In this document: positions 16,384-29,088 of the stretch, in pieces | Layout of the letters: the number at the start of each line of letters is the position of its first letter | How positions within the stretch are numbered: position 1 is the stretch's first letter | Assembly (NCBI RefSeq): GCF_000430045.1 | Contig: NZ_KE387023.1 | Location: 2,465,276 to 2,505,972 of the forward strand | Length of the DNA stretch: 40,697 bases | Direction: 5' to 3' | From: Calidithermus chliarophilus DSM 9957 | GTDB taxonomy: Bacteria; Deinococcota; Deinococci; Deinococcales; Thermaceae | The notes under the pieces: generated by a model | What the model was told of the DNA's origin: nothing | Databases searched by the model: none | The model's input: the letters and a program-made list of their open reading frames with translations, nothing else | Program-made: the position numbers and the translations under genes

Positions 16384-16728
16384 TCAGGCATCTTCAACCT
16401 TTCCCCTGATGTGCCGCTGAATCTCACCCAGCGCGGCGTTCCGCTCGAGCACCACCGCCTGGGGCTGCCCGGGCTGATAGCCCACCACCACGTGCGTCAC
16501 GCCGAGCAGGCCCAGCGCGGTCAGGAAAGCCTCCTTCAGGAGGAAGCCCTCGAGCCGCCCCACCCGCATGCCCTGTGCGGCCGGGCTGAGGCGGAGGAAG
16601 GCCTCGGCCTCCTCCTGCGAGAGCCAGACGGGCACCAGCTTGCGGCCCAGCGCCTCCATCACCAGGTGCTCCCCAGGCGCGGCGGGGTCCTCGAGGACGT
16701 GCCAGGGGGTCTGTAGAACGGGTTCCAT
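16384..16728 (-). CDS. Conserved-looking hypothetical protein downstream of asd
   Basis: The 114-residue protein is predicted cytoplasmic: no signal peptide, mixed helices and strands, V-P-V-W-L-S-Q-E-E-A-E-A-F-L near residue 32 and G-V-T-H-V-V-V-G-Y-Q-P-G in the second half. It starts 6 nt after the asd stop, so the two are almost certainly co-transcribed under the same attenuator. I do not recognise the family. The W-L-S-Q-E-E-A-E segment vaguely recalls SseB-like domains but is not enough for a call. Confidence 0.75.
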   Translation of the reverse strand: MEPVLQTPWHVLEDPAAPGEHLVMEALGRKLVPVWLSQEEAEAFLRLSPAAQGMRVGRLEGFLLKEAFLTALGLLGVTHVVVGYQPGQPQAVVLERNAALGEIQRHIRGKVEDA

Positions 16729-16734
16729 GGGGCT

Positions 16735-17733
<999 letters not shown>

Positions 17734-17751
17734 CCTGACCTCCTGGAAGCT

Positions 17752-17775
17752 AAATAAAAATCCTGCCTTGGCAGG
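17752..17775 (-). terminator. Attenuator terminator upstream of asd
   Basis: On the minus strand CCTGCC-AA-GGCAGG is followed by ATTTTTATTT and then the asd ribosome-binding site. A second, larger hairpin (GCGGCGACTC-CTC-GAGTCGTCGC) lies between it and the leader peptide stop and could be the alternative structure. Confidence 0.82.
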
Positions 17776-17808
17776 CAGGGGGCAAGCGACGACTCGAGGA
17801 GTCGCCGC

Positions 17809-17838
17809 CTAGGTAGTGGTGGTGCGAGCCAGGCTCAC
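17809..17838 (-). CDS. Threonine-rich leader peptide of asd
   Basis: The minus strand reads GTG AGC CTG GCT CGC ACC ACC ACT ACC TAG, encoding M-S-L-A-R-T-T-T-T: four consecutive threonine codons just before the stop, like leader peptides of threonine operons. The GTG stands 6 nt after TAGGGT, which has TTGACC 18 nt before it, so the peptide would be translated from the 5' end of a leaderless transcript. A hairpin and a T-tailed terminator follow before asd. Ribosome stalling under threonine shortage would be expected to relieve termination. Frame choice and mechanism are inference. Confidence 0.7.
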   Translation of the reverse strand: MSLARTTTT

Positions 17839-17844
17839 GCGAGC

Positions 17845-17874
17845 ACCCTAGCATCCCCCGGCCCCGGCGGTCAA
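17845..17874 (-). promoter_or_regulatory. Promoter of the asd leader (TTGACC-N18-TAGGGT)
   Basis: On the minus strand TTGACC (plus 17869-17874) and TAGGGT (plus 17845-17850) are 18 nt apart, and the leader peptide GTG starts 6 nt after TAGGGT. This is the best-formed promoter in the window. Confidence 0.75.
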
Positions 17875-18063: not shown

Positions 18064-20388
18064 ATGAGGGGGAGCGGTCGGATTGTGGCGGTCGGATTGT
18101 TGTTGGTGGTGCTGGGGGCGTGCTCGAGCAACCTCGAGCCCAGGTCCCAGATCGACGAGCCGGGCTTCAAGGAGACGGCCGAAGGGTACGAGTTCGCCGA
18201 CGACGCCCGGGGGGCTCCGGCGCAGCCCGCGGCCACCCTGCCCAGCAACGGGCTGGTCGGGGAGTACTTCGACAACAAGGACTTCACCGGGCCGGTGGTG
18301 CGGCGTGTGGACCCCGAGATCAACTTCACCTGGAACTCCCTCGCGCCGCTGCCCTCGATGGGCGCCGACACCTTCTCGGTGCGCTGGACCGGCGAGGTCG
18401 AGCCCCGCTATAGCGAGCAGTACACCTTCTACACCGTCTCCGACGACGGGGTGCGGCTGTGGGTCAACGGCCAGCTCCTCATCAACAACTGGGCCAATCA
18501 CGGCGCCAAGGAGGACGCCGGCACCATCACGCTGCAGGCCGGCAAGCGCTACACCATCAAGATGGAGTTCTACGACAACACCGGCAAGGCCGTGGTCAAG
18601 CTGCGCTGGTCGAGCGCGCGGCAGGCCAAGGAGGTCATCCCCAGTTCGCAGTTGTTCCCCACCGGCCCGCTGATCCCCCTGCCCGCCGACCCCTCCGGCC
18701 TGACCGCCACCGCGACGAGCGGCCAGCGCGTGGACCTGCGCTGGGGCGCCTCCGCCAACGCCAGCCAGTACGAGCTCGAGCGCAAGGCGGGCGATGGCAG
18801 TTTCGCCCCGCTCGCCCGGCTCAGCGGAACGAGCTACGCCGACGTCAGCGTCAGCGGCAACACCACCTACACCTACCGCGTGCGGGCCACCAACGAGATC
18901 GGCGAGAGCTCCTGGGTGGTTTCCAACACCGTGACGACGCCGCCGACGGGCAGCTCGAGGGCCCACCTCGAGGGCAAGTTCGGGCCGGTCCAGCCCTGGC
19001 CGCTGGTCGCCGCGCACGCCGCGCTGCTGCCCGACGGCAAGGTGATCTCCTGGTACAGCTACGACGCCGTCGGCGACTACCGCGACATCAAGGACCCCCA
19101 GGCCTACTTCCACAACTCCACCCTGGTCGGCCTGTGGGACCCCGCCACCAACACCCACGAGCGGGTGGACAACCCCACCACCGACCTCTTCTGCGCCGGG
19201 TGGGTGCTCCTGAGCGACGGGCGCTTCTTCGTGGCGGGTGGCAACGAGGGCTCGCCCAACGGTAGCCCCGACACCAACGTGTTCTACTCCCAGACCAAGG
19301 CCTGGAGCCCGGGCCCGGTCATGAGCGGCGGGCGCTGGTACCCCACCACCACCCTGCTGCCCAACAAGGAGGCCCTCATCATCGGCGGGACCGACCAGAG
19401 CGGCGCGGATAACGGCCTGGCCGAGGTCTACCAGACCAACGGGACCCTGCGCGCGCTCACCGGCGCCCGCACCGAGACCTGGGACTTCACCCACTGGTAC
19501 CCCTGGATGCACGTCGCCCCCAACGGCCTGGTGTTCTACTCCGGGGCTTCCCCGCGCATGGGCTACCTCAACCCGGCGGGCACGGGGAGCTGGACCTTGC
19601 AGTTCTCCAGGGGCGACCCCACGCGCACCTACGGCACCTCGGTGATGTACCAGCCCGGCAAGATCCTCGTCGCGGGCGGGGGCGGCACCAACGCCACCAC
19701 CAAGCTCATCGACCTGCTCACCCTCAACGCCTACGGCGAGCCCACCGTGACCGTGGGGCCCCCCATGGCCTACGGCCGCACCCACCTCAACGCCACCCTC
19801 CTGGCCGACGGGCGGGTCTTCGTCAACGGCGGCAACGACGGCACCAACTTCGACGACTCGAGCTCGGTCTACCGCAGCGAGATCTGGAACCCCAAGGCCA
19901 ACGCCTGGACGTTGGGCGCGACCGCCCAGGTGCCGCGCAACTACCACTCCACGGCGCTGCTGCTGCCCGACGGCACCGTCTGGACCGCGGGCGGGGGCGG
20001 CTGCGGTTCCGACTGCACGGTCAACCGCTTCAACTACGAGATCTACTACCCCCCCTACCTCTTCAAGAAGGACGGCTCGGGCAACTACGCGCCCCGCCCC
20101 TCCCTGGCCTCGGTGCCCACCGCGCTGGCCTACGGGCAGGGCTTCAGCCTGGGCACCCCGCAGGCGGCCTCCATCCAGAAGGTGACCCTCGTCGCGCTCG
20201 GCGCCGCCACCCACGCCTTCAACATGAACCAGCGCTTCCTCGAGCTCCCCATCACGGCCCGGGGCGCCAGCACGCTCCAGGCCACCGCGCCCGCCAGCCC
20301 CAACCTGGCCCCGCCCGGCTTCTACCTCCTCTTCATCCTCGACGCCGACGGCGTGCCCTCGGTGGCGAAGGTCGTCAACCTTCAGTAA
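18064..20388 (+). CDS. Lipoprotein: PA14 + FnIII + galactose/glyoxal-oxidase-like kelch + DUF1929
   Basis: The 774-residue protein has a lipobox (V-L-G-A-C), a PA14-type carbohydrate-binding domain (about 63-200, with [11 protein letters not shown]), a fibronectin III domain (about 208-295), a seven-bladed kelch-like propeller and a C-terminal DUF1929-like domain ending [12 protein letters not shown]. Residues of copper radical oxidases are present: C377 in F-C-A-G, Y426 in R-W-Y-P-T, Y627-H628 in N-Y-H-S, and H717 in T-H-A-F-N-M-N-Q-R. In that family the Cys and first Tyr crosslink as the radical cofactor, oxidising an alcohol or aldehyde and releasing H2O2. Anchoring outside the cell suggests a role on polysaccharide. 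Activity is inference. Confidence 0.88.
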
Positions 20389-20780: not shown

Positions 20781-22544
20781 ATGAATCCGGGGAAAATGAT
20801 CCTGCTGGGGCTCGCTGTCGTGCTGGCCGCCTGTGCCGGGCCCGACCCCGCGCCCGCCAAGCCCGCCGTCCTCGAGGCCATAACCCTCTCCGAGCGCCAG
20901 GTTCGCCTGAGCTGGCCGGCCGCGGCCCACGCCCGCGCCTACGAGATCGAGCGCAGCACGGCGGGGGGCGCGTACGAACCGCTCGCGCAGGGCGCCGCCA
21001 CCGCCTACGTAGACTCCACCGTGGCCGCCGACCAGCGCTACAGCTACCGGGTGCGCGCGCTCAACTGGGGCGGCGCGAGCGGCTGGGCCGAGTCGGGGGC
21101 GGTGATCACCCCGCCCAAGCCCACGCCGAGGGCCCACCTCGAGGGCGTGTTCGGCACGGCGCGGAGCTGGCCCCTGGTGGCGACGCACGCCGTGCTCCTG
21201 CCCGACGGCACGCTGATGTCGTGGTACAGCCAGGACGCCATCGGCAACCACCGCGACAACACCGACCCGATCTACCACACCGGCACCCGGGTGGACCTGT
21301 GGAACCCCCGCACGCTCGAGCACCGCCCTGCCAACAACAGCACCACCGACCTGCTGTGCGTAGGGCACGTGGTGCTCAGCGACGGGCGGCTCTTCGCGGC
21401 GGGCGGCAACCTGGGGGGCACCAACGGCAGCGACCACACCAACTACTACGACCCCGCCCGCGGCGCCTGGGCCCGCGGCCCCGACATGGCCGCCGGGCGC
21501 TGGTACCCCACCCTCACCCTCCTGCCCAACGAGGAGGTCCTCATCACCGGCGGCAGCGACGCCCAGGGCAAGGACAACCCCGCCCCCGAGGTGCTCCAGC
21601 GCGACGGCACGCTGCGCCTGTTGAGCAACGCCCGCACCGACACCTGGGACCTCAACCACTGGTACCCCTGGATGTTCGTCACCCCGACGGGGCGGGTGTT
21701 CCACGCGGGCTCGAGCAACCGCCTGCGCTTCCTCGAGCCCGCCGGCCAGGGGGCCTGGGGCGAGGGCTACCCCCGCGACGGCAAGAACCGCTGGTACGGC
21801 AGCGCCGTCATGTACCAGGCGGGCAAGATCCTGGTGATCGGCGGGGGAGGGCCGGACGCCACCACCACCCTCCTGGACGTCAGCGCGGACGGCGAACCCG
21901 GGGTGCGCCCCGGCCCCTCGATGCGCTTCGGCCGCACCCACTTCGACGCCACCCTCCTGGCCGACGGGCGGGTCTTCGTCAACGGCGGCAACGACGGCGA
22001 GAAGTTCAGCGACGAGGCCACCGTTTACGACAGCGAGATCTGGGACCCCCAGAGCAACGCCTGGGCGCCGGGGGCCAGGGCCAGCGTGCCGCGCAACTAC
22101 CACTCCACGGCGCTGCTGCTGCCCGACGGCACCGTCTGGACCGCAGGCGGGGGAGGCTGCGGCGAGGGCTGCGGCGTCAACCACCCCAACTACGAGATCT
22201 ACTACCCGCCCTACCTCTTCGAGCCCGACGGCTCCGGCCGCTATGCCCGCCGCCCCAGCCTCACGGGCGCGCCCCGCACCCTGGGCTACGGCCAGCGCTT
22301 CACCCTCCAGTCCCCCGACGCCCCCTCGATCGCCTCGGTCAGCCTCGTCGCCCTGGGGGCCGCCACCCACGGCTTCAACATGAACCAGCGCTTCATGAAG
22401 CTGACCCTCGAGGGCAAGGGGAGCGCTACCCTCGAGGTCCGGGCCCCCGCCAGCCCCAACCTGGCCCCGCCCGGCTTCTACCTCCTCTTCATCCTCGACG
22501 GGCGGGGCGTGCCCTCGGTGGGGGAGATCGCGCGGCTCGAGTAG
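20781..22544 (+). CDS. Lipoprotein: FnIII + galactose/glyoxal-oxidase-like kelch + DUF1929
   Basis: This 587-residue paralog of the preceding gene lacks the PA14 domain. It has a lipobox (V-L-A-A-C), a fibronectin III domain (about 28-110), the kelch propeller and the DUF1929-like end. The copper-radical residues are conserved: C193 in L-L-C-V-G, Y242 in R-W-Y-P-T, Y440-H441 in N-Y-H-S, H530 in T-H-G-F-N-M-N-Q-R. Long stretches (for example [17 protein letters not shown]) are identical to the neighbour, so the pair arose by tandem duplication. It has its own ribosome-binding site and probably its own promoter. Substrate unknown; activity inferred. Confidence 0.88.
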   Translation: MNPGKMILLGLAVVLAACAGPDPAPAKPAVLEAITLSERQVRLSWPAAAHARAYEIERSTAGGAYEPLAQGAATAYVDSTVAADQRYSYRVRALNWGGASGWAESGAVITPPKPTPRAHLEGVFGTARSWPLVATHAVLLPDGTLMSWYSQDAIGNHRDNTDPIYHTGTRVDLWNPRTLEHRPANNSTTDLLCVGHVVLSDGRLFAAGGNLGGTNGSDHTNYYDPARGAWARGPDMAAGRWYPTLTLLPNEEVLITGGSDAQGKDNPAPEVLQRDGTLRLLSNARTDTWDLNHWYPWMFVTPTGRVFHAGSSNRLRFLEPAGQGAWGEGYPRDGKNRWYGSAVMYQAGKILVIGGGGPDATTTLLDVSADGEPGVRPGPSMRFGRTHFDATLLADGRVFVNGGNDGEKFSDEATVYDSEIWDPQSNAWAPGARASVPRNYHSTALLLPDGTVWTAGGGGCGEGCGVNHPNYEIYYPPYLFEPDGSGRYARRPSLTGAPRTLGYGQRFTLQSPDAPSIASVSLVALGAATHGFNMNQRFMKLTLEGKGSATLEVRAPASPNLAPPGFYLLFILDGRGVPSVGEIARLE

Positions 22545-29058: not shown

Positions 29059-29088
29059 TTGGTTTTGGTGTACCAAACATGATAGGAT
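29059..29088 (+). promoter_or_regulatory. lysC promoter with an embedded inverted repeat
   Basis: TTGGTT (29059-29064) and TAGGAT (29083-29088) are 18 nt apart, placing the start of transcription a few nt before the ATG at 29099. The spacer contains the perfect inverted repeat TTTGGT-GT-ACCAAA (29064-29077), a candidate operator. The rest of 28895-29098 holds only this and the cupin-operon -10. Confidence 0.6.

Follow-up and report, generated by a model that had tools for sequence, protein, structure and literature searches.

A candidate threonine attenuator with a leaderless-type leader peptide upstream of asd in Calidithermus and its relatives

Introduction

The enterobacterial thrL leader has a Shine-Dalgarno sequence, encodes a longer, Thr/Ile-rich peptide than the leader described here, and controls thrABC. 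Our leader lies before asd, and the two are alike in placing a run of Thr codons and a terminator ahead of genes of the threonine pathway (Rfam Thr_leader for thrL), while the Ile codons that stand alongside Thr in some relatives of the asd leader are a further thrL-like feature. Unlike thrL, the asd leader starts at the promoter, has 7–14 codons across relatives, and controls asd.

Leaders without an upstream untranslated region have been described elsewhere. In Streptomyces lividans, which belongs to another phylum, leuL, trpL and thrL likewise have short, leaderless leaders with control codons followed by one or more hairpins; thrL stands before thrS and lacks a clear terminator, and the sections drawn on here describe no fixed abutment of stop codon, hairpin and terminator of the kind found at asd (PMC8079986). 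The Sinorhizobium meliloti trpL transcript begins at the leader ATG, as the asd leader is predicted to do, but trpL is a Trp attenuator, and the RNA and peptide that it releases also act in trans (PMC7298713). Since a leader start at the RNA 5′ end has thus been reported for Streptomyces leaders, including a Thr leader before thrS, and for S. meliloti trpL, this property by itself is not new. The Corynebacterium ilvB-II motif, or ilvBNC attenuator, resembles the asd leader in its conserved upstream ORF, two stems and terminator, but its antiterminator overlaps the terminator (PMC10272879, PMC11857589), while at asd no antiterminator sharing bases with the terminator was found.

Here we analyse a stretch of 40,697 nucleotides from Calidithermus chliarophilus DSM 9957 (hereafter the window) together with related genomes. 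In bacteria of the Thermus group, lysine comes from the aminoadipate route and the cell wall contains ornithine. Asd would therefore feed mainly Met, Thr and Ile, which would make a single Thr signal at asd reasonable. In the literature, searched as titles and abstracts of mostly non-subscription papers and covering Meiothermus, Thermus and Deinococcus, no Thr attenuator of asd was found; the control point at asd and the arrangement of its RNA parts appear to be new, while the general idea is known.

Materials and methods

The asd gene was located in 50 Thermaceae genomes and the DNA upstream of it was then compared; class- and phylum-wide searches covered one set of 111 genomes, with no sign of Deinococcus among them. 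The core comparison comprised 22 genomes, namely two of Calidithermus (the source genome G000 and G003), two of the genus g2, which we take to be Allomeiothermus, and 18 of Meiothermus. Leaders of the Thr type numbered 25, three of them from family f3.

For folding in the presence of a ribosome, the downstream edge of the ribosome mask was set 13 nt from the A-site codon. In the search for an antiterminator, the best pairing of each terminator 5′ arm with the upstream leader was compared with that obtained for shuffled leaders.

Results

An earlier note on this DNA had read a promoter (TTGACC-N18-TAGGGT), a GTG 6 nt further on opening a nine-residue peptide that ends in four threonines, and then a hairpin and a T-tailed terminator before asd. 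All of these parts were found where the note had placed them, all on the minus strand, with coordinates, spacing and peptide confirmed and with the hairpin (P) at 17811-17783 and the terminator (T) at 17779-17752. The features of the locus are:

17869..17874, minus strand: −35 hexamer TTGACC, from the sequence; TTGAC is kept in relatives with a spacing of 17–18 nt
17845..17850, minus strand: −10 hexamer TAGGGT, from the sequence; 6 nt upstream of the leader GTG
17809..17838, minus strand: leader ORF GTG...TAG for MSLARTTTT*, with translation from leaderless mRNA predicted
17812..17823, minus strand: control codons ACC ACC ACT ACC (four Thr), unique in the window
17783..17811, minus strand: hairpin P of 13 bp and −19 kcal/mol, from the stop codon on; covariation
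17752..17779, minus strand: intrinsic terminator T and U tract; 7 bp stem at 17779-17762
17739..17744, minus strand: Shine-Dalgarno sequence AGGAGG of asd, from the sequence
16735..17733, minus strand: asd, aspartate-semialdehyde dehydrogenase; TIGR01296, 412 bits; start GTG at 17733
16384..16728, minus strand: DUF3234 gene, PF11572; 6 nt downstream of asd

The spacer between the two hexamers is 18 nt in the window, and the leader codons, from the GTG at 17838, read GTG AGC CTG GCT CGC ACC ACC ACT ACC TAG. The stem of P (GCGGCGACTC-CTC-GAGTCGTCGC) has a core of 10 bp, or 13 bp with the stop codon counted in, and T consists of the stem CCTGCCTGCCAAGGCAGG at 17779-17762 followed by the U tract ATTTTTATTT; T was also recovered by an independent terminator scan. 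A run of four Thr codons ending in a stop turns up a single time on the two strands of the 40.7-kb window, against 0.01 expected from Markov controls, and the leader region folds more stably than its shuffles (z −2.85). The DUF3234 gene is probably the second gene of the operon, co-transcribed with asd. Divergent from asd lie genes for two tandem, related, secreted kelch/galactose-oxidase-like proteins, at 18064-20388 (+) and 20781-22544 (+), the first of whose products matches the radical copper oxidase GlxA below the cut-off.

Each of the 22 genomes of Calidithermus, Allomeiothermus and Meiothermus has the layout of promoter, ORF, P and T before asd; these genomes share ancestry and are not to be counted as independent events. 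The layout also recurs in five genomes from two further families (f3, n = 3; f2, n = 2). The peptide is MSLARTTTT in Calidithermus, MVWY plus three to five Thr, sometimes with one further residue, in Meiothermus and Allomeiothermus, and MQFWNTTTTTK, MNVWYTTTTTI or MSQRFNNTTTI in f3. Every one of the 25 Thr-type leaders, all of which have the terminator, encodes Thr at Thr1, Thr2 and Thr3, while Thr2 uses three codons and Thr3 four, the stop is TAG in 14, TAA in nine and TGA in two, and ORF length differs among relatives by whole codons. Because Thr is kept while third bases and the stop codon change, the sequences indicate that the ORF is selected as a translated, Thr-coding peptide. P is conserved as a structure, with 100% of cells paired in an alignment of 14 relatives and changes in both partners of three pairs. 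With E-values of 1e-11 or lower, a covariance model built on P and T recovered each of the 22 asd leaders, and it also matched the leaders of f2 and f3; no Rfam family, Thr_leader included, matched the asd leader at gathering score.

Neither the Thr leader nor the terminator stands directly before asd in Thermus (g4), in the genus g5 or in families f4 and f5. In many Thermus genomes asd is placed right behind the upstream gene, which from its sequence we take to be glyS, and the end of that gene is similar to the reading frame found before the promoter in g2; leader and terminator seem to have been lost in Thermus together, as a unit. The earlier note had proposed the comparison with Meiothermus and Thermus and had held that relatives keeping the terminator without the Thr run would speak against attenuation. 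The run is kept in all 25 Thr-type leaders, each with its terminator, and Thermus has lost both, so, given that the two seem to have gone as a unit, Thermus does not count as such a relative. No Thr leader was found before hom, thrC or lysC in 16 genomes each; this counts against the attenuator reading, under which control by Thr codons would be confined to asd.

Genome G051 of family f2 carries two paralogous leaders, the Thr-rich MKFDSSTSNTTIF before asd (TTGACC...GTG AAG TTT GAC TCG AGC ACC TCC AAC ACC ACT ATT TTT TAG) and the Ile-rich MKIQSSTPQIIIF before ilvA, a threonine ammonia-lyase gene (TIGR01124, 799 bits). The latter, the one second locus that the covariance model recovered, has the same promoter, hairpin and terminator as the asd leader of that genome, and the control residues of each leader fit the pathway in which the downstream gene acts. 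The pair amounts to a natural codon-swap experiment, and as a comparison of sequences it supports codon-specific sensing. The asd leader of the related f2 genome G052, MKLASHICNIMITP, mixes Ile, Met and Thr; some asd leaders of f2 and f3 combine Thr with Ile or Met in this way, which counts against the attenuator reading. The other model matches away from asd that were inspected were rejected as further P-T loci, being other structures, terminators or composition-driven.

The geometry of the two hairpins is narrowly fixed. In 26/26 leaders examined, P overlaps the stop codon by 0–3 nt or touches it, the linker between P and T is 0–3 nt, an intrinsic terminator stands between leader ORF and asd, and the stability of P (−14 to −23 kcal/mol) exceeds that of T (−10.5 to −14). 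Masked folding lets P form in Thr-type leaders when the ribosome is stalled with Thr1 in the A site, whereas a ribosome that has reached the stop codon prevents P and leaves T able to fold. T formed in every ribosome state folded, each time as a strong terminator, and P and T coexist in the structure predicted for free RNA. Since the two coexist in the predicted folds, a switch needs a steric or kinetic argument beyond the folding test.

By the pairing test used, the asd element has no conserved antiterminator that shares bases with T. The best pairing with T averaged −8.1 kcal/mol against −12.6 for T itself (mean z −0.6) and had no fixed place, so that the antiterminator mutually exclusive with T that marks classical attenuators of the trp, thr and his type is lacking at asd. 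The earlier note's description of a classical layout therefore stands for the Thr leader, the hairpin and the terminator and fails for the antiterminator. Pairing of the 3′ arm of P with the 3′ arm of T was tried as an antiterminator and dropped, having the wrong sign and being weaker than T. As a positive control, the ilvB attenuators of the same genomes gave −16.4 against −17.7 kcal/mol (z −2.6), with an antiterminator that is in every case formed by the leader ORF's G-rich end and reaches about 93% of the terminator energy. These ilvB attenuators are like asd in a promoter near the leader start, a short leader with control codons and a terminator, and differ in having the classical antiterminator that the asd leader lacks. 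Folded free of ribosomes, ilvB leaders in most cases also have upstream structure reaching to 2–6 nt from T; closeness to T is therefore not special to asd, and the 0–3 nt linker loses force as proof of steric antitermination.

The source genome itself has such a leaderless-type branched-chain attenuator, MPASLALTLVVVGLVIIGPTGDRV, before ilvB at 2333160, with a classical antiterminator, and homologues of the ilvB leader are MRFALALSLALVLIVGPAGGRV in Thermus and MKNASIIVVVVALSTGVAA in f3. Before leuA, f2 and f3 have leaderless-type leaders, some of them Leu-rich (e.g., MYNFAALSLALVHSRVVA), which end in terminators containing CTCGAG.

The promoter scanner used did not list the asd leader promoter, which has 8/12 matches against a cut of 9. 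Upstream of the leader, relatives from Meiothermus and Allomeiothermus keep a TTGAC(T/A) box at a spacing of 17 nt, and a TAnnnT hexamer ends 6–9 nt before the leader start codon in 22/22 genomes. From this distance of 6–9 nt we infer that the mRNA is leaderless, starting at the start codon or a few nucleotides from it.

In Meiothermus and Allomeiothermus the first leader codons are invariant, synonymous sites included, as ATGGTTTGGTATACCAC, with one copy per genome. The core of this motif, TTTGGTATACC, is often palindromic (TTTGGTATACCAAA) and occurs 5–10 times per genome in Meiothermus, Allomeiothermus and Calidithermus, against 0–2 for the reversed pattern; it occurs 3–11 times per genome in f2 and f3 and is absent from the two Thermus-type genomes tested (G028 and G049). 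It lies at the asd leader start in 20/20 Meiothermus and Allomeiothermus genomes, between the −35 and −10 of ilvB, and in these genera upstream of amino-acid and nitrogen genes, which from reading the sequence by eye we take to be leuC, serA, metF, metH, gltB, ilvC and others. The window has a copy with one mismatch, TTTGGTGTACCAAA, at 29064-29077 (+) before lysC (aspartate kinase), while at asd of Calidithermus, the window included, there is no TTTGGTATACC site and the attenuator is intact. On the simplest reading, TTTGGTATACC appears to be a candidate operator, for a global amino-acid regulator, that overlaps the leader start, which would account for the invariant MVWY without a peptide function. 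A functional MVWY peptide was considered and rejected, as the same nucleotides recur as a promoter-region motif and Calidithermus has SLAR in its place.

Discussion

It is very likely that the asd leader is a Thr attenuator, the reading put forward in the earlier note, which gains support from Thr1 to Thr3 being invariant in all 25 Thr-type leaders, each with its terminator, and from the Thr and Ile paralogues of G051. The full explanation that we favour and hold to be probable is that the leader is a ribosome-mediated transcription attenuator tying asd expression to threonyl-tRNA; both the response to Thr and the direction of the switch we infer from sequence. If the mRNA starts at or near the leader start codon, ribosomes would enter at the 5′ end of the RNA. 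When Thr is plentiful, a ribosome would pass the Thr codons to the stop and hold the 5′ arm of P open, so that T could fold and transcription would end before asd. When Thr-tRNA is short, the ribosome would halt on the first Thr codons, at a distance from P of roughly half a ribosome footprint, whereupon P would fold, T would fail and asd would be transcribed.

With no bases shared between P and T, their coupling would most likely be steric. The base of T should sit deepest in the RNA exit channel at release, with P attached there, and a duplex of 11–13 bp at 0–3 nt from that base would be incompatible with a fully closed T in the channel. Hindrance of T by P would be the only coupling considered here with the right sign, namely readthrough when Thr is short, and we put forward this steric step tentatively. 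More doubtful is whether it marks a variant of attenuation without competition for bases between antiterminator and terminator, in which a hairpin touching both stop codon and terminator blocks termination sterically when folded, and the ribosome, as it decodes the control codons, opens that hairpin and so switches termination on.

A fully classical attenuator, with an antiterminator made by the 5′ arms of P (UAGGCGG) and T (CUGCCUA) and with P itself doing no more than pausing or protecting, would bring asd into line with the ilvB attenuators of the same genomes, which are of the classical kind (z −2.6), and a 7-bp pairing of this type can be drawn in Calidithermus (G000, G003). We consider it unlikely, as the alternative pairing at asd is weak, not fixed in place and no better than with shuffled upstream sequence, and as P, which shares that 5′ arm, is transcribed earlier and is stronger, and an upstream stall would not free that arm. 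The strength of T in every folded state would also suit a constitutive terminator or RNA-stability element formed by P and/or T, with the Thr codons merely serving P and the ORF incidental, but synonymous Thr codons, interchanged stops and length changes by whole codons are unexpected for non-coding RNA, and codon identity switches to Ile before ilvA, which makes this proposal very unlikely.

With TTTGGTATACC at the asd leader start in 20/20 genomes, and 5–10 copies per genome against 0–2 for the reversed pattern, a DNA-binding regulator might be the main control of asd in Meiothermus and Allomeiothermus and the attenuator secondary; this we judge improbable, given that asd of Calidithermus keeps an intact attenuator without the site. 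Because the site is missing at asd there, the attenuator stands alone in Calidithermus, and outside that genus operator and attenuator may act together. The same parts might, finally, act on translation of asd through pairing of the Thr codons with the Shine-Dalgarno region, as in the minimum-energy fold of the window sequence, where the Thr codons pair with the asd Shine-Dalgarno/start region. However, that region and its distance from the leader vary among relatives while T is always kept, and in genome G011 more than 60 nt of other sequence separate the U tract from asd; we give this possibility hardly any credence.

A Thr attenuator at asd, whose product acts early in the route to threonine, would add a threonine control point in a deeply branching thermophilic lineage. 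It would also be a very small one, spanning about 85 nt between the start codon and the U tract, with an unusual geometry of stop codon, hairpin and terminator. In family f3, lysC lies downstream of asd with at least one gene between them, and the Thr attenuator may there control asd and lysC together.
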